A stretch of DNA of 58,622 nt from NCBI GenBank assembly GCA_022563505.1, contig JADFNG010000007.1:1-58622 (forward strand). Reading direction: 5' to 3'. The DNA comes from Pseudomonadota bacterium. Lineage in GTDB: Bacteria > Pseudomonadota > Gammaproteobacteria > Steroidobacterales > Woeseiaceae. A program made the translations under genes and the position numbers. Every line of letters begins with the position of its first letter. The stretch's first letter is position 1. The notes beneath the pieces were generated by a model. The model had not been told where the DNA came from and did no database searches. It saw nothing but the letters and a program-made list of their open reading frames with translations. This document shows positions 987 to 49,333 of this stretch, in pieces.

Positions 987-1796
987 ATGCATGACCGTAG
1001 CTCGCAGTGGCTGATCCCACTCATCCTGACGGGCGCTGCTGCTGCTGCGCTCTGGTACTACTGGTATCAGGCCAATACACCCACCCGCCCTGCAGCAGTT
1101 CCTGCCCCGCCGCCGGTCGTGCAGGAACTTGCGGCGACGGGACCGCGCTATCCGTTGCCGCAAACGATGCCGGGTTTAAGCGAACGGGAAAACTTGCCGG
1201 CGTTACCGCCGTTGGATCAGAGTGATGCGTACTTCAGGCTGGATTTGGTCGGGCTGTTCGGCAGCGGTATCACCGAGCTGCTTGTCGATACGGCGGTCAT
1301 CGAGAAAATTGTCGCAACCATCGACAATTTGCCACGCGATCATGTTGCCGAGCGCATCCGCCCGCTTGGCGGTGTTGTCGGGCCGTACCTGGCGGATGGC
1401 CAGGACGGCAGCGGGCAGTACACGGTCAATGCCGCCAACCACCAACGTTACGATTTCCTGGTGACCCTTCTGGGCAATGCGGATCTGGTGGCGCTGGTTG
1501 AAGTGTATCGACGGTTTTATCCGCTGTTTCAGGACGCCTATGCGGGTCTGGGTTATCCGCACGGGTATTTCAACGATCGTGCGGTCGAGGTGATTGATCA
1601 CCTGCTGGAAACACCCGAAGTGAGGGAGTCCCTTGAGCTGGTGAGGCCGCATGTGCTTTATGAGTATGCGGATCCGCAACTTGAAGCCTTGTCGAGTGGA
1701 CAAAAATTGTTGCTGCGAATCGGCAATGAGCATGCGCTACGGGTCAAGCAGTTCCTGGAGGAACTCCGTGTACTCATCATCGAGCCGGCCGCGTAA
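987..1796 (+). CDS. DUF3014 domain protein
   Basis: A 269-residue protein with an N-terminal membrane segment (about residues 9-27), a proline/alanine-rich linker and a soluble domain that starts near LPPLDQSDAYFRLDL and runs to the end. That layout matches the DUF3014 family, which is anchored in the inner membrane with a periplasmic domain; its function is unknown. The start is the ATG at 987; another ATG four bases later is in a different frame. It is followed by the M28 peptidase gene after 91 bp, and the two may be co-transcribed. Confidence 0.85.
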   Translation: MHDRSSQWLIPLILTGAAAAALWYYWYQANTPTRPAAVPAPPPVVQELAATGPRYPLPQTMPGLSERENLPALPPLDQSDAYFRLDLVGLFGSGITELLVDTAVIEKIVATIDNLPRDHVAERIRPLGGVVGPYLADGQDGSGQYTVNAANHQRYDFLVTLLGNADLVALVEVYRRFYPLFQDAYAGLGYPHGYFNDRAVEVIDHLLETPEVRESLELVRPHVLYEYADPQLEALSSGQKLLLRIGNEHALRVKQFLEELRVLIIEPAA

Positions 1797-1887
1797 GGCA
1801 AATATCGATTCATAAAAGAACACCACCAATAACCCTGTCCCCGGGCTGACAGCCGGGGCCAGGTGGCCGTCAATCAGGAGGAAAGGA

Positions 1888-4107
1888 ATGCAACATTTAT
1901 TGCTCGCAGCGGTGCTGGTCAGCATTGCCGGTGCGGCTGGCGCCGAGGAGATATTGGGATTTAATGCGGCTGAATCTGAGGCGCAGCGAAGTCTCGAAGC
2001 CGATTTCGATGCGCAGCTGAGCAAGCAGGACATGGATGCCTGGCTAAAGAAATTTTCAGTCAGGCCACATCACGTTGGTTCGACCGCAGGCAAAGAGAAC
2101 GCGATGCTCATTGCCGATATGTTCCGGTCATGGGGCTACGATGTGGAGATTGCGGAATACGAGATTCTGCTGCCAACACCGATCACTCGCGAACTGGAAC
2201 TCGTCGCTCCGTCGAGCTTCACCGCATCGCTTGAGGAGGATTCGCTGCCAGAGGATGCAAGCACTTCCGTAAGAGATGAATTGTTGCCGCCGTATAACGC
2301 CTTTTCCATTGATGGCGATGTCGAAGCGGAGCTGGTGTTTGTCAATTATGGCAGGCCCGAAGATTACGAGATTCTCGAGCGCCACGGTATTGATGTTGTT
2401 GGCAAGATCGCCATCGCCAAATACGGCAAAACGTGGCGCGGTATCAAACCAAAACTGGCCGGCGAGAAGGGCGCCATTGCTACGATTATTTACTCGGATC
2501 CGGCAGATGACGGATATGGCGCCGGTGATGTGTATCCCAAGGGGCCGTTCAAGCATGCAAGCGCCGTGCAACGTGGCTCGGTGATGGATATGCCGACCTA
2601 CCCGGGTGACGTTCTGACACCGGGAATTGGTGCAACCAAGCGCGCCAAGCGCCTCAGAATCAAAGATGCCGAAACCATTACGAAGATTCCCGTGTTGCCG
2701 ATTTCAGAGCGCGATGCGTTGCCGCTGCTTGCGGCGATGGAGGGTGCGGTGGTGCCACCGGAGTGGCGCGGCGGTTTTCCGATTACCTATCATCTTGGAC
2801 CCGGTCCGGCACGTGTTCACCTGAAGGTGAAATTCAACTGGGAAACGGTGACGGCGTACAACGTCATTGCGACACTCAAGGGGAGTGATTTTCCGGATGA
2901 ATGGGTCATACGCGGCAATCATCACGATGGCTGGAATCACGGTGCGGCCGATCCGTTGTCTGGCCTGGTGGCTCTGCTGGCCGAAGCACGTTCGGTCGCA
3001 GAGCTTGCGAAAGCCGGTCATGCGCCCAAGCGCACGATTATCTATGCGGCCTGGGACGCCGAAGAGCCGGGTCTCATCGGCTCGACAGAGTGGGTCGAAC
3101 ATCACGCGCGTGATCTGAAGAAACATGCGGTTGCCTATTTGAACACGGATGGCAACAGCCGCGGTTTTATCAGCATCGGTGGAAGCCACGTGCTGGAGCG
3201 CTTCTTCAATCAGATCATGGCTGACGTGCGGGATCCGCGCATGGATATTTCACTGCAAGATCGCCGGCGTGCCTTGCTGAAGCTCAATGCAAAAACAGAC
3301 AGAGAGAAAGACGAAGCCCGCAATCGTGCTGACCTTAGAATCTATCCGCTGGGATCGGGATCCGACTACACGCCGTTCCTGCAACATCTCGGCATTGCTT
3401 CAGCGAATATGGGCTTCAGCGGCGAAGGGGCAGGCGGTAGCTACCACACCCTGTACGACACCTACGAACATTATTCGACCTGGCGAGATCCCGGTCTTGT
3501 GTACGGCGAAGTGCTTGCGCAGGTTGCAGGACGGGCGACGTTGCGGCTTGCGAATGCACCGCGATTGCCGTTCGAGTTCAAAGGGCTTGCAGACAATATT
3601 CGTCTTTATATCACGGAACTCGAAGAACTGGCGGATAAGAGGCGCAAGGACATTGAGCTCAGGAACGCGCTGATTGACGACGGTACCTATGCGGCGGCGC
3701 TGGATCCAACCAAGACGCTGGGGCCTCCGAAGCGCGAGGAATCAGTACCACACTTCAATTTCGCGCCGCTCAAGAACGCAATGGATCGATTGCAAAATGC
3801 GGCCGATGCGTATCATGAAACAGTCGCAGCGGGGGCGGCTCCATCTCCTGAGGTCAATGAAATGCTCTACAGCAGCGAGCGCCTGCTCACCCGGGATGCC
3901 GGCCTGCGCGGCCGGACCTGGTACAAACACCACATCTATGCGCCGGGTTTCTATACGGGTTACGGCGTTAAGACCATCCCGGGTGTGCGCGAAGCGATTG
4001 AGCAACGTGAATACGATGCGGTGCAGGAACAAGTCGAGCTGGCGGCGCGAGTCATCGACCGTATGTCGCAGCGGATCGAGTCCATTGTTGCTATGGAAGC
4101 GAACTGA
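1888..4107 (+). CDS. M28 metallopeptidase, glutamate carboxypeptidase II-like
   Basis: A 739-residue secreted zinc peptidase with a signal peptide at residues 1-19. It has the three-part architecture of the PSMA/transferrin receptor group: a protease-associated insert near the start, the M28 catalytic domain in the middle and a C-terminal helical dimerisation-like domain. Zinc ligands expected for the family are visible: His in GNHHDGW, Asp in ADPLSG, Glu-Glu in WDAEEPGL, Asp in LNTDG and His in YHTLYDTYE. It should release a C-terminal residue from small peptides outside the cytoplasm; the substrate cannot be told. A strong AGGAGG stands just before the ATG. The TPR gene follows after 13 bp, so the two form an operon. 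Confidence 0.92.
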   Translation: MQHLLLAAVLVSIAGAAGAEEILGFNAAESEAQRSLEADFDAQLSKQDMDAWLKKFSVRPHHVGSTAGKENAMLIADMFRSWGYDVEIAEYEILLPTPITRELELVAPSSFTASLEEDSLPEDASTSVRDELLPPYNAFSIDGDVEAELVFVNYGRPEDYEILERHGIDVVGKIAIAKYGKTWRGIKPKLAGEKGAIATIIYSDPADDGYGAGDVYPKGPFKHASAVQRGSVMDMPTYPGDVLTPGIGATKRAKRLRIKDAETITKIPVLPISERDALPLLAAMEGAVVPPEWRGGFPITYHLGPGPARVHLKVKFNWETVTAYNVIATLKGSDFPDEWVIRGNHHDGWNHGAADPLSGLVALLAEARSVAELAKAGHAPKRTIIYAAWDAEEPGLIGSTEWVEHHARDLKKHAVAYLNTDGNSRGFISIGGSHVLERFFNQIMADVRDPRMDISLQDRRRALLKLNAKTDREKDEARNRADLRIYPLGSGSDYTPFLQHLGIASANMGFSGEGAGGSYHTLYDTYEHYSTWRDPGLVYGEVLAQVAGRATLRLANAPRLPFEFKGLADNIRLYITELEELADKRRKDIELRNALIDDGTYAAALDPTKTLGPPKREESVPHFNFAPLKNAMDRLQNAADAYHETVAAGAAPSPEVNEMLYSSERLLTRDAGLRGRTWYKHHIYAPGFYTGYGVKTIPGVREAIEQREYDAVQEQVELAARVIDRMSQRIESIVAMEAN

Positions 4108-17397: not shown

Positions 17398-18756
17398 TCA
17401 GAGGAAATACTGCGACAGGAAAGGGTTCATCATCCGTCGGTCCGGGTCGATTTGACGCCGTACCTTGCGAAAGTATTCCAGTCTTGTAGTGAAAATTGAC
17501 TTTGTATAGGCCAGGTCAACTTCCCTCGTCTGATTAAAAACCGGGGAAGCACCCCAGTGTTTGGCAAAGTCGCCAAAATCAATGGCGAAATTGTCCCAGC
17601 CTGTTTTTTGTGTCGACATTGCACGCAATGCGATCATCGGTTCGTCGAACGACGGCGATAATACGGCCGATCGGTCGCGACTTAGCCGATAGCCGACCGT
17701 CGGCATATCGCAGCGAAAACCACTCTCGTCTCGAATGCGGACGCAAAAATCTTTATACGCCTGAATGATGATCGAGAAATCCGCAGCCGGGAAAAACCAG
17801 GTGGAGTATTGCAACGAGCTGCTGCTGCCACGTCCACACGATTGCGCGGTTGCCATGCTGCCGCTTGAGACGAGTCGGCTACTGACAAGCCCTTGCGTTA
17901 ACTGGCTCAGCTTGTCGATGAGTCGGTAACGAACTCCCGCTGCGGGAATGATGCGGTGCAACGATTTGAATACACGGGGCAGCACTGTGCTCTCTCCCCA
18001 GTCTTTGATTTTCCATGGAATATTTGCCGTTGCCCGGGCGTTGACATCGAACCGTCTGAGATCCAGGTATACGGCATCACTGAAGGGCAAAAACAGGAAG
18101 CGCATGCCCGCGTTGGTGCGTACCAGCGAGTCGATCGCCTTGGCGAACTGCGCGAGAGAGCAACGCCGGTGGCTTGCGCTGAAGCCGGTAATCGGGCGCG
18201 CTTTCAGGGTCAGTTCATAGATCACCCCCAGCATGCCGTAACTAAGGCGAAAAACATTCAGCAGCGATTTCTGTCCGCTGCCGACATCGAGCAGGTTGCC
18301 GGTTGGCGTGACCAGCTTCATGGAGATGACCTGTGCCGCGAACAGTCCATGATTCGATCCAATGGCAGGACCGTTGCACCCGCCTGCGACCGCGCCTCCA
18401 ACCGTCCGACTCACCAGGTCGTGACTGCCGTCGAGTTCCATTCCTCGCGCGGCCAGCGCGTGTGATAACTGACCCAGTCGGACGCCCGCCTGTACGGTGA
18501 CCTGCCCGGCAGCAACATCAATGTTGATGATTTCATTGAACGCCGTCATATCAATGACAGTACCGACTGAAGAGCTGTTGCATTCCGTTGCTGCGGTATC
18601 GGCGCCCATCGGGCGAAACGGCGGCAAGTGGGGCGAGTCCGGATTGAGGATACGTTGCAGGTCTTTAAGTTTTTGGGGATATAAAACTACCGGCCCGTCG
18701 GTTGGCCGAAGGCGGTAACGGCCTGATTTGCGCAAGCTTGCAGCGGTAACTGACAT
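17398..18756 (-). CDS. FAD-linked oxidase (PCMH/ALO type)
   Basis: A 452-residue flavoprotein. Residues from about 15 to 190 form a PCMH FAD-binding domain (QAGVRLGQLSHALAARGMEL, SRTVGGAVAGGCNGP). The C-terminus ends FRKVRRQIDPDRRMMNPFLSQYFL, split as FRKVRRQIDPDRRMMNPF, as in aldonolactone/sugar oxidases of the D-arabinono-1,4-lactone oxidase group. It would oxidise an alcohol or lactone with FAD; the substrate is unknown. No signal peptide. The start is the ATG at 18756, four bases after GGAGG; the frame also opens at 18849, but those extra 31 residues match no domain. It stands alone, with a c-di-GMP-I riboswitch in its leader. Confidence 0.85.
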   Translation of the reverse strand: MSVTAASLRKSGRYRLRPTDGPVVLYPQKLKDLQRILNPDSPHLPPFRPMGADTAATECNSSSVGTVIDMTAFNEIINIDVAAGQVTVQAGVRLGQLSHALAARGMELDGSHDLVSRTVGGAVAGGCNGPAIGSNHGLFAAQVISMKLVTPTGNLLDVGSGQKSLLNVFRLSYGMLGVIYELTLKARPITGFSASHRRCSLAQFAKAIDSLVRTNAGMRFLFLPFSDAVYLDLRRFDVNARATANIPWKIKDWGESTVLPRVFKSLHRIIPAAGVRYRLIDKLSQLTQGLVSSRLVSSGSMATAQSCGRGSSSSLQYSTWFFPAADFSIIIQAYKDFCVRIRDESGFRCDMPTVGYRLSRDRSAVLSPSFDEPMIALRAMSTQKTGWDNFAIDFGDFAKHWGASPVFNQTREVDLAYTKSIFTTRLEYFRKVRRQIDPDRRMMNPFLSQYFL

Positions 18757-18875
18757 TGTGCCTCCAAACGTATTAGCCAGAGAGGCACTGTCGTTTCGCG
18801 GCAGGTCTTCAGGAGTTGCGCATACAGCAGGATTGCCGGCAGCGTGCATGGCTTAAAGCCTTGCTGCAAGTCATA

Positions 18876-18950
18876 TTGGCAACCCCGCTGTCTTAGGTTT
18901 CCCCTTAGACCGGTGGCTTTGCGACCCTGACTTTCGACAGGTGTGCCTTT
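18876..18950 (-). promoter_or_regulatory. cyclic di-GMP-I (GEMM) riboswitch
   Basis: Read on the minus strand this leader has the class-I c-di-GMP aptamer elements in order: GGCA (18944-18947) pairing with TGCC (18878-18881); a hairpin CCTG..CAGG capped by the tetraloop GAAA; the core TCGCAAAGCC; ACCGGTCTAA with the receptor-like CTAA; a second stem GGTCT..AGAC; and the closing AGCGGGGTTGCC. It starts about 190 bases before the ATG of the FAD oxidase, on the same strand. A TTGACA at 18991-18996 could be the -35 of its promoter. No T-run follows the aptamer, and a short hairpin GGCTTTAAGCC lies just after it, so control may be by ribosome access rather than termination. Confidence 0.88.
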
Positions 18951-19208
18951 TTTCAATCGAAAAGAGATCGTGACACAGCCGGATTCCCGCTGTCAATTTA
19001 GTCCGAGAATTAATATCGGATATTGTTAAATGCACAAATGGGCAGCGTCAGGAGTAACGATTTTGATGCGTTCATGGGCAGTGTCGCTGGTCGCACGGGA
19101 GCCACTTTCCGGGCTTGGCCAGCTCCGTAAACGGGAAAATCCGCAACAAGCGACGTACAATCGCCGCAGTCAGAACGCCATACCCTTGTCCGACGGTTAC
19201 TTTATGAA

Positions 19209-20296: not shown

Positions 20297-21292
20297 TTAA
20301 TTGCCGACCAAAGCTTCGCGATTCTTCCCGGCTTCCCGGAGTCGGGCCTCACTGTGTTCACGTTGAGTGATGGCGGCGTATTTTGCGGCTTCGCCGGCCG
20401 CAACGAATTGATCTTGTGGTACGACCGTGACGTCATCATTGACGCCGAAGAATAGTACGATGCTGTATCGCTGCCAGCCCCGGGTCCTGACACGATGTCC
20501 GGTTGCACGGCAAGCGCCATTGGTCCATCGCTCAAACATGTCGCCCAGGATCACGACCAGTCGAGCATCGTCAGCCGGCGCATCGTACCAATCACCGTGA
20601 CTGTCCATGAGTTCGAGTCCAGGCGCGGATTGTGAAATCAACGTGATGCATTCGAAGTCGGTGTGTGCGGCGATGCCGACATTGGCCGTCTCCGCGGCAG
20701 AGGGCGTGTGTGCCGGATAGTGGAGTAACCGCATCGTGCTCAGATCCTGCGTATTGCAGCGCTCTGCGAAAAAATTCGTCTCTAGCTCGAAGGCCTCTGC
20801 AAGTGCCATGAGAGTCGCCATGCCAATGGTCGTGAGATCCTCCCAGACGGCACGGACAGCGCCCTGAAATCCTGGCATGGCAGGCCAGCTAATGGGTGTC
20901 CAGTTCGGGTCACGCCCTGATCGTTGCGGCCGCCCGCAATCGAAAGATTCAAGGTGAGCAATGGTACCGGGTTGGTACGCGGGCTCCTGAAACATCGGCA
21001 TCCAGCCATAAGTATTGGTCTTTCCCGTCACGTCAATTGCCTGCTTGCAGGCATCGGTGTCAGGCAGGCCGAAAAAATGTCGCATTTGAGCGAGTAGCTT
21101 ACGATGGGCATCGGCACGAGAGAGCAGGTTGTCGATGCAAAAGAAACCGGTATCAAGGCAGGCCTGGCGAATTTGTTCGGCAGCTCGCGTGCGGTCGGAG
21201 CGGCTGCCCATCAGGAGATCTGCATCAATGCCTGGAAGTGATTCGCCAAGCGAGCCCCGGATCGGCTCCTGGCGCTGGAAATTTCTGCTCAT
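20297..21292 (-). CDS. 2OG-Fe(II) oxygenase, isopenicillin N synthase-like
   Basis: A 331-residue cytoplasmic non-haem iron oxygenase. The N-terminal DIOX_N-like region contains TGFFCIDN. The double-stranded beta-helix carries the iron triad, His and Asp in AAHTDFECITLI and His in ACRATGHRV, followed by the 2-oxoacid-binding Arg-x-Ser in QRYSIVLFFGVN. It would hydroxylate or desaturate a small molecule using O2 and usually 2-oxoglutarate; no neighbour points to a substrate. The 128-bp gap at its 3' end holds nothing recognisable. The start is the first ATG after a region rich in stops. Confidence 0.88.
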   Translation of the reverse strand: MSRNFQRQEPIRGSLGESLPGIDADLLMGSRSDRTRAAEQIRQACLDTGFFCIDNLLSRADAHRKLLAQMRHFFGLPDTDACKQAIDVTGKTNTYGWMPMFQEPAYQPGTIAHLESFDCGRPQRSGRDPNWTPISWPAMPGFQGAVRAVWEDLTTIGMATLMALAEAFELETNFFAERCNTQDLSTMRLLHYPAHTPSAAETANVGIAAHTDFECITLISQSAPGLELMDSHGDWYDAPADDARLVVILGDMFERWTNGACRATGHRVRTRGWQRYSIVLFFGVNDDVTVVPQDQFVAAGEAAKYAAITQREHSEARLREAGKNREALVGN

Positions 21293-21465
21293 GGGTCAGC
21301 CTGGTTTTCCTGAGAGTCACAAATACCGTAGCGGATGATACGATTTTTCTGTTTCTCGAAAAAGGCCGTAAAAAATCGATCTGCAATGCAACCGATTGGG
21401 CAATCAGAGCATCTAAGTATCATATGGGGCATAGATACGCTCCTGCAATCAATGAGGACATGAGA

Positions 21466-22179
21466 ATGCGCGGCATAGTGATTTTAAGCCTGTTAACGGC
21501 AAGCCTGGTATACGGGGCGGCCAATGGCTATGTGGAGGTTCGCGATATGCGGCTTCCTGCTGAAGGCCTTACGGCATTAAAGGTTGACGCAGGTGCCGGT
21601 AGCCTGGAGGTCACCGGGGTTGCGGATGCAAACGAAGTCGTCGTCACTGCGAGGATTGTCGTGGCTGCAAAAGATGACGCCGCAGCGCGGCGGATCATCG
21701 CTTCCGACATGGTGCTGAACCTTGAAAATGAGGGTGAGCTAGCCGTTTTGGCCAGTCACTTTGAATCGTCCCTGTGGAGTTGGCATGACAGTCCCGCCAT
21801 TGACCTTGAAATCTCCGTTCCGGAACGGTTCATGTTAATGGTCGATGATGGATCGGGCCCGATAAAAATCAATGACGTGCGTGGCGATATTACGATCGAC
21901 GATGGCTCCGGCTCCATTTCCCTGATGGACGTTGGCGGCAGTATTCGCATTGTCGATGGCTCCGGCTCGATCCGGGTTACGGAGGTGGGAGATTCGGTCT
22001 CCATTGTCGATGGCTCTGGCTCGATTACGGTGAGTGGCGTCGGTGGCAGTGTTTTCATCGATGACGGTTCCGGCAGCATTGACGTCAGCGATGTGGCGCA
22101 GGACTTTATTGTGAAGGACGATGGCAGTGGCTCAATCAAGTTTGCCGGGATCCAGGGGCGGGTCGAAACGCCGGACTAG
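21466..22179 (+). CDS. exported DxGSGxI repeat protein (DUF4097-like)
   Basis: A 237-residue exported protein with a signal peptide of about 18 residues. After a non-repetitive first half it has six near-identical repeats of about 18 residues, each a beta strand followed by DDGSGSI or VDGSGSI and a second strand ending VGGS or a variant. This is expected to fold into a right-handed beta-solenoid like DUF4097 adhesin-like domains. The repeats are also alike at DNA level (GATGGCTCCGGCTC and variants). A longer open frame starts at 20896 inside the oxygenase gene, but GAGGA seven bases before the ATG at 21466 fixes the start; 21460 is an alternative. A terminator follows at 22218. Confidence 0.85.
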   Translation: MRGIVILSLLTASLVYGAANGYVEVRDMRLPAEGLTALKVDAGAGSLEVTGVADANEVVVTARIVVAAKDDAAARRIIASDMVLNLENEGELAVLASHFESSLWSWHDSPAIDLEISVPERFMLMVDDGSGPIKINDVRGDITIDDGSGSISLMDVGGSIRIVDGSGSIRVTEVGDSVSIVDGSGSITVSGVGGSVFIDDGSGSIDVSDVAQDFIVKDDGSGSIKFAGIQGRVETPD

Positions 22180-47110: not shown

Positions 47111-49333
47111 ATGCGCACAGCAATGACTGCAGATGTACACAATCTCGCCACCTGGAAAAACATTGGTGCGGCGAAAGGGCTCCTGGCATCGCTGGTACCA
47201 CGCGCCCAGTGTTTTTGCTTCTATAGCATCGAGCGCGACTGCGTATGGAGCAGCGATGGCGTCGAGGATTATGAAATCGACAATTTTGTGGCCGATCTTC
47301 CTCACGAGATTGTCTCCGGTGTCGACCCGGATGCAACTTTTCTAAGACGAACTCTGAGTTCCGGCCGTGTACTTGTGTTAATGCCGGTATTCAGTTCTGC
47401 GAAAATCGGGCTTGGACTTTTGATTACGGTCTTCTCCAGAAACGCCGGCAAATCCTCCTCATTCAACCCAAGCCTGCTGGAAAAAATCTTGCTGCCCGCC
47501 GCGCGGGTAATCGGAGAGACATTGCATCTGACGCAGCAACTGGCAGCAGCGCAAGACCGGACAGGCGAGGTAGAGCGTGAATTGGAACTCGTTTACCGAA
47601 TCGATGAAAAAATTCACGGGACATCGCGCAGTCATGTGGGTCTCGCACAACTTATTGGACAAAGCGGTCGGTTCCTGGGAATCGCCTATAGCGTCCTGTT
47701 ACTGCCGGGGAAACGTATTCGTATCAGCGCGACCCATTCCAGCTGGAAGTCGGTAGACCGCAAAGCCGTGGATAAATATTTGATCCAAAAATTATTTCCA
47801 CAGATTGAAGGCGAGAGAGGCCCCAAAATATTCAAGGTTCCAGCGATCGAAGGATCGGATCAGGTTGCGGACCAGGGGTATATGGCAATGCTGTCACCGT
47901 TGCTCGACAGTGCTGGCAATCTTGAAGGGGCCATTGCACAACTTTCCCGGGTCAACGGTGAGCCATTCGATGACCATCACAAGCGTTTCATGGCACACAT
48001 CATTCGCAAGGTCGAATACGTCATTGAACAATCGTTTGACCCGATGACCGGGTTTCTCAATCGCTCGGGTTTCGAGGCGCAATTGCGCGAGTCGGGTAAA
48101 GCGTTCAAGTCCACCGATGACGTTCACCAAATCATTCGTTTCGATCTCGACAATCTGCATCTTGTGAACGATACCTTCGGTCGTGATGCCGGTGACGATG
48201 TCTTGGTGCGTTTTGCCGGAATGCTGGAGGAAGTACTCCCCAAAAATGCGGTTGCCACCCGCCTGGCAGCGGATGACTTCGCAATTCTGCTGACACACAG
48301 CAGTCTTGAGGAAGCGATTGCCCTTGCCGACCTGGTGCGCAAGAGGGTCAAGACGCTGCGTTACCTGGACGGAGACCGTGCTGTGCAGGTGACAATGAGT
48401 ACCGGCATAGCGCCCTTTGATGCGCGACCTGGTGATCCTGGACACGCATTGACCACGGCGCGCATCGCCTGTGACTCCGCCAGGGAGCATGGCCGTGATC
48501 GACTTGAGGTGTATGACAACGATGATAAGAGCATTATCAGGCGTTACGACGACATGCACCTGGTCGCACGTATTCAGCAGGTTCTTGACGATGATGAATT
48601 CACGTTGCTCGCTCAACCCATCGTGTCGCTCGCTGACGACGATACGACGAAGCGATTCGAGATCTTGCTGCGCATGCGCGATAGCGAAGGTCGGGAAATT
48701 TCTTCAAGTGCGCTGTTCTCTGCGGCTGAGCGTTACAAGTTGATGCCGCAAATCGATCGCTGGGTTGTCTCAACCACCCTCCGCAAGCTCAGCAAGCACG
48801 CGGACTATTTGCGGAAATCCGGAACCGTCTTTGCGATCAATCTGTCAGGACAAACGCTTGGGGATGACGATATCCTCAAATTCGTTGAAGATGAAATCGA
48901 ATCAAGTCATATCCCGGCGACCTCATTGTGTTTCGAGGTGACTGAATCGGCAGCAGTATCCAATCACCAGAAAGCGAAGATTTTTATTGATGCACTGCGC
49001 GAACGCGGCTGCCATTTTGCACTCGACGATTTTGGTGCAGGTCTCAGTTCCTTCGCATATCTGAAGAATTTTCGCGTTGACACGCTGAAAATCGATGGCA
49101 GTTTTGTGCGTGATATCACGACCAATAAAATTTCGGAAGCCATGGTTGCGGCCATTACCGAGGTGGCCAGAGTAATGGGGCTCAAGACGGTCGCAGAGTA
49201 CGTTGAAACTACAGCGGCAAAATCGTTGGTGAACAAACTGGGTGTCGATTTTGTGCAGGGACATGCGACCGGGAAACCAGTCAATTTCGATGGTGTGCTA
49301 CTCGACTTGACGGCAAGCGCCAAGACGGCCTGA
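47111..49333 (+). CDS. EAL phosphodiesterase with degenerate GGDEF
   Basis: A 740-residue soluble signalling protein. The first 300 residues hold GAF-like sequence without membrane segments. The GGDEF domain (about residues 320-475) has the metal-site Asp in FDLDNLHLVND, but its signature is LAADDFAIL, so AADDF replaces GGDEF and cyclase activity is unlikely. The EAL domain (about 490-735) keeps FEILLRM, NLSGQTL, CFEVTES, DDFGAGLSS, LKIDG and AEYVE, all needed for c-di-GMP hydrolysis. It is therefore probably a c-di-GMP phosphodiesterase regulated by its GGDEF and GAF-like parts. The start may be 47111 or the ATG at 47123. Confidence 0.9.
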   Translation: MRTAMTADVHNLATWKNIGAAKGLLASLVPRAQCFCFYSIERDCVWSSDGVEDYEIDNFVADLPHEIVSGVDPDATFLRRTLSSGRVLVLMPVFSSAKIGLGLLITVFSRNAGKSSSFNPSLLEKILLPAARVIGETLHLTQQLAAAQDRTGEVERELELVYRIDEKIHGTSRSHVGLAQLIGQSGRFLGIAYSVLLLPGKRIRISATHSSWKSVDRKAVDKYLIQKLFPQIEGERGPKIFKVPAIEGSDQVADQGYMAMLSPLLDSAGNLEGAIAQLSRVNGEPFDDHHKRFMAHIIRKVEYVIEQSFDPMTGFLNRSGFEAQLRESGKAFKSTDDVHQIIRFDLDNLHLVNDTFGRDAGDDVLVRFAGMLEEVLPKNAVATRLAADDFAILLTHSSLEEAIALADLVRKRVKTLRYLDGDRAVQVTMSTGIAPFDARPGDPGHALTTARIACDSAREHGRDRLEVYDNDDKSIIRRYDDMHLVARIQQVLDDDEFTLLAQPIVSLADDDTTKRFEILLRMRDSEGREISSSALFSAAERYKLMPQIDRWVVSTTLRKLSKHADYLRKSGTVFAINLSGQTLGDDDILKFVEDEIESSHIPATSLCFEVTESAAVSNHQKAKIFIDALRERGCHFALDDFGAGLSSFAYLKNFRVDTLKIDGSFVRDITTNKISEAMVAAITEVARVMGLKTVAEYVETTAAKSLVNKLGVDFVQGHATGKPVNFDGVLLDLTASAKTA

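Follow-up and report, generated by a model that had tools for sequence, protein, structure and literature searches.

A c-di-GMP-I riboswitch paired with a VAO-type flavoenzyme in Woeseiaceae and other Gammaproteobacteria, and its predicted action on translation

The window, i.e. the whole stretch of 58,622 nt of DNA that was analysed, originates from the draft genome (completeness ~82%) of a sediment gammaproteobacterium and carries on its minus strand a c-di-GMP-I aptamer followed by a gene encoding a flavoprotein (Table 1). A search with cmscan revealed RF01051 as the sole Rfam family at gathering level in the entire window, a rescan of the sub-region giving the same result, and the match covers all 87 positions of the model at 79.1 bits (gathering score 35 bits). 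The minus-strand element is a real full-length c-di-GMP-I aptamer; a sequence-only reading of this DNA had proposed a class-I aptamer and asked for this covariance-model check, and all the sequence blocks it named are present in the RF01051 alignment.

Table 1. Features of the flavoprotein gene and its leader in the window
Feature	Position	Strand	Basis or remark
VAO/PCMH flavoprotein, 452 aa, GALDH/alditol-oxidase/DprE1 fold	17398..18756	-	domain and structure matches
Shine-Dalgarno region GGAGGCAC	18758..18765	-	directly before ATG 18756; linker:SD duplex z -2.8
anti-SD strand GTGCCTC	18782..18788	-	7 bp with 18764-18758 (GAGGCAC)
anti-aptamer strand GGCAATCCTGCTGT	18825..18838	-	downstream partner of aptamer 3' strand
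c-di-GMP-I riboswitch aptamer (RF01051)	18875..18957	-	match to model 1-87; 79.1 bits; window-wide E 6.3e-14
aptamer 3' strand ACAGCGGGGTTGCC	18878..18891	-	sequestered by anti-aptamer in free fold
aptamer 5' strand AGGCAC	18943..18948	-	6 bp with anti-SD (18788-18783) when transcripts of 175-185 nt are folded

The full aptamer, the contact-base blocks and the GAAA-capped P2 are shared with the c-di-GMP-I (GEMM-I) riboswitches of the Vc2 and Cd1 types. In Vc2 the ligand is contacted by G20, A47 and C92 (PMC4744006), and when these bases were placed on the window aptamer, by hand mapping and without structure-derived numbering, the corresponding blocks GG, CAAA (AAA) and CC were found to be canonical, both in the window aptamer and throughout the set of 78 aptamers that were checked. 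A cGAMP-type pocket was rejected on this sequence basis. Class members in which a single base of the pocket is altered respond to cGAMP (PMC9481103), and the aptamers of some homologues prefer the sister model RF03167, but with canonical blocks throughout and a window aptamer scoring highest with RF01051 it is extremely improbable that the aptamer senses a cyclic dinucleotide other than c-di-GMP, for instance 3',3'-cGAMP.

The start of the flavoprotein gene is better set at ATG 18756 (-), TTTGGAGGCACAATG, behind a GGAGG sequence. The earlier start, ATG 18849 with a leader of 25 nt, did not hold, since homologue alignments begin at the first residue of the shorter protein and the Shine-Dalgarno (SD) sequence favours 18756; the leader after the aptamer is therefore 118 nt.

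As the sequence-only reading had suggested, the frame from 17398 onward encodes a FAD protein of the PCMH/ALO fold, with FAD_binding_4 (E 9e-22) and a marginal ALO domain (24.0 bits, cut-off 23.1). The AlphaFold model of the protein (pLDDT 89) matches alditol oxidase, ancestral galactonolactone dehydrogenase and DprE1 over the full length at 18–19% identity. Towards L-galactono-1,4-lactone dehydrogenase (8qnb, 8qmy)/ALO the VIA-align Z is 38–40 at 18% identity, and towards alditol oxidase (8ot8, 2vfr) and DprE1 the same fold is found with Z about 33–40. The FAD domain is common to the window protein and the GALDH/ALO family, whereas sequence similarity to it all but vanishes in the C-terminal half. 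The C-terminal motif HWXK, typical of aldonolactone enzymes (PMC11505616), reads HWGA in the window protein, and among the homologues its fourth position is G or A in 48/48 and K in 0/48. Like plant GALDH the protein lacks the covalent-flavin His, and the column aligned with it is Ser or Thr in most homologues. According to the gatekeeper rule, Gly or Pro distinguishes a flavoprotein oxidase from a dehydrogenase, with known exceptions (PMC11505616). When aligned to GALDH, the residue at the gatekeeper Ala113 is His in the window protein and mostly bulky (H, F, Y, C) elsewhere, with P in 5/48, which points tentatively to a dehydrogenase. Cys127 was rejected as gatekeeper because alignment to the A113G chain puts this position at His112. 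The bit-score cut-offs of the NCBIfam lactone oxidase families were not reached (TIGR01678 70.7 vs 396.8, TIGR01679 110 vs 292, TIGR01676 63.5 vs 458 bits).

With HWXK lost, the covalent-flavin His and gatekeeper columns changed and the NCBIfam scores below cut-off, the flavoenzyme, judged by motif loss and fold similarity, is read as a member of a separate VAO-type family and is more likely a dehydrogenase than the oxidase named earlier. At the weakest step of the proposal, the substrate would probably be a small hydroxylated metabolite, for example a sugar, lactone or alditol, with the electrons passing to a carrier rather than to O2.

Riboswitches for c-di-GMP are known mainly from genes for motility, pili, chitin and surface proteins, while the gene targeted here, which is conserved across five families, encodes a VAO-type flavoenzyme. 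In the named collection, the matches of the flavoenzyme come from Woeseiaceae and other gammaproteobacterial draft genomes. Aptamers and homologues were compared by coordinates and the loci then scanned, and in every homologue of at least about 34% identity with intact upstream DNA the aptamer lies directly upstream on the same strand. The search for the same pair in related genomes, which the sequence-only reading had proposed, was thus strongly positive, with 71 distinct aptamers (counted rather than loci, the two collections overlapping) in five families of the order (f1, f3, f6, f10 and f15), f10 and some of f15 being below 34% identity. Around 30% identity the results vary, the aptamer being present in f10 and some of f15 but missing at two loci of f9, one of f6 and one in another order. 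One further locus without aptamer (L060) is uninformative, its contig ending about 220 nt upstream. The pairing of a known aptamer class with an unusual target is well supported, and the tree is compatible both with a single gain followed by losses and with several gains, and does not settle between them. No published riboswitch associated with Woeseia, or with a FAD-linked or lactone oxidase, was found in the open-access literature searched. A pairing with one metabolic flavoenzyme over five families implies a metabolic output of c-di-GMP in mostly uncultured sediment bacteria, and offers a handle for finding the role of the enzyme.

In Woeseiaceae the pair is located near a divergent Thr/Ser dehydratase gene and a PadR-MFP-RND set, the latter following the flavoenzyme, while outside this family the neighbours differ between families and the pair persists; the conserved unit is the riboswitch with the flavoenzyme. 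The position of the PadR, MFP and RND genes raises the question of whether the aptamer serves the efflux operon with the flavoenzyme merely in between, which is highly unlikely given that a 322-nt gap precedes the MFP gene of the window and that the other families keep the pair without an adjoining pump. The neighbourhood was also rejected as a clue to the substrate, being lineage-bound, and with an efflux pump, a PadR regulator and a dehydratase it lends no sugar- or surface-related setting to the "surface sugar step" suggested before. One neighbour cluster (C10), which has no Pfam match and apparently comes from reading the PadR gene in antisense, was dropped. Elsewhere in the window, at 20896–22179 (+), lies a protein containing many DDGSGSI-type repeat units, without Pfam match in the frame tested.

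How the aptamer could act was addressed by folding of the leaders. Complementary strands in the window leader (Table 1) allow two mutually exclusive folds. In the unconstrained fold of the full leader, the aptamer 3' strand is paired with the anti-aptamer and the SD with GTGCCTC, while in transcripts ending before the SD, GTGCCT pairs with the aptamer strand AGGCAC instead. The 14-bp helix between the aptamer 3' strand and the anti-aptamer has a probability of about 1 when unconstrained and 0 with the aptamer forced; its duplex z is -3.4 in the window and -0.6 in the sister species, where it is poorly kept. For the window, the modelled exposure of the SD amounts to 0.03 when the aptamer is forced and 0.66 when the anti-SD is captured; the corresponding values for the sister species are 0.06 and 0.80, and most of the 19 loci modelled shift in the same direction. 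As the joint anti-SD test gave p 0.06 in the window (0.13 in the sister species and 0.18 in the next relative), we infer the capture step there with support from the modelled pairing but short of demonstration. The SD hairpin is favoured at equilibrium in both states in the window, so that the switch would have to act during transcription.

In a second clade, helices of 9–11 bp between the aptamer 5' strand and the linker follow the same logic with better statistics than the window, and joint pairing of the linker with aptamer and SD beats shuffled sequences in many loci. The capture helix does not expose the SD in a few loci (L037, L047, L048, L086 and L087), and the linker complementarity scan gave no clear capture helix in several clades (gap >125 nt; families f6 and f15), which rules out one switch mechanism for all homologues.

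When searching between aptamer and start for an intrinsic terminator, none was found in the window leader, and this type of platform was rejected there; among the homologue leaders there are candidates in 6/70, all weak. Rho tends to act on untranslated leaders whose SD is closed, and control could in principle be transcriptional, by Rho-dependent or intrinsic termination within the 118 nt with secondary effects on translation. A dual mechanism is reported for another c-di-GMP-I riboswitch, Bc1 (PMC11218506). Against this, apart from the scarcity of terminators, stand the loci where a gap of 0–8 nt from aptamer to start leaves no room, making transcriptional control decidedly unlikely.

The shortest leaders point to translation. 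In seven loci the ATG is situated 0–1 nt after the aptamer and the only SD is a GGAG inside the aptamer core, 8–9 nt before the ATG, an arrangement that differs from the Vc2 and Cd1 types and for which no earlier report was found in the open-access literature searched. The change GGGG to GGAG in the core is present in 7/7 of these loci vs 5/63 of the others (Fisher p 7e-7), the full-length ones forming one clade in the tree and thus counting as one event. Their modelled SD exposure differs little, 0.19–0.43 free vs 0.25 with the aptamer forced. Another Woeseiaceae clade and a single f15 locus have an SD that overlaps the last 3–4 nt of the aptamer. From these two kinds of relatives it is very likely that control acts on translation, with an OFF sign favoured, and the platform-free ones provide an evolutionary series for a class-I aptamer acting directly on the ribosome site.

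The opposite sign, in which c-di-GMP would free the SD through some other pairing, is conceivable because the full-length leader, when unconstrained, folds with its SD closed (0.01 unpaired), which could be an OFF default opened by the ligand; cyclic-dinucleotide riboswitches of either sign have been described (PMC4744006, PMC9262584). Forcing the aptamer leaves the SD closed in the window and most relatives, and in the platform-free loci aptamer formation covers it, so an ON switch appears unlikely. Among c-di-GMP-I riboswitches there is precedent for a translational platform (Vc2, PMC9262584) as well as for an OFF sign (Cd1).

It is considered rather probable, from the sequences and the modelled folds, that a canonical c-di-GMP-I riboswitch turns translation of one flavin-dependent dehydrogenase OFF at high c-di-GMP. 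Without ligand, the aptamer 3' half would pair with the downstream anti-aptamer while the 5' strand AGGCAC captures GTGCCT, leaving the SD free (ON); with c-di-GMP, the aptamer would keep its own strands and the anti-SD pair with GAGGCAC, closing the ribosome site (OFF). Cells would then produce the enzyme while c-di-GMP is low, as in motility or dispersal. More tentatively, the whole may represent an old c-di-GMP-I lineage tied to a new, non-ALO family of flavin dehydrogenases, in which the platform was repeatedly rebuilt and lost several times, the core turned into an SD in one clade, and c-di-GMP directly gates redox metabolism.

The genome itself contains 13 GGDEF and 7 EAL matches, and the window too carries both domains, at 48035–49279 (+), in a single open frame of 745 aa. 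Four c-di-GMP-I aptamers were identified in this genome. Besides that of the window, one (L002 1501–1588 (+)) lies upstream of a gene for an M23 peptidase (1711–2640 (+)), one (L003 1501–1582 (+)) precedes a membrane-protein-like gene without Pfam match, its frame extending to 3010, and one (L004 1613–1501 (-)) precedes a gene (1539–529 (-)) with a cadherin-like beta-sandwich domain, the latter pair adjoining a transposase-like gene. Some relatives (G010, G026, G044, G046 and G059) harbour 15–21 c-di-GMP-I aptamers per genome, and G046 and G059 include closely spaced aptamer pairs.
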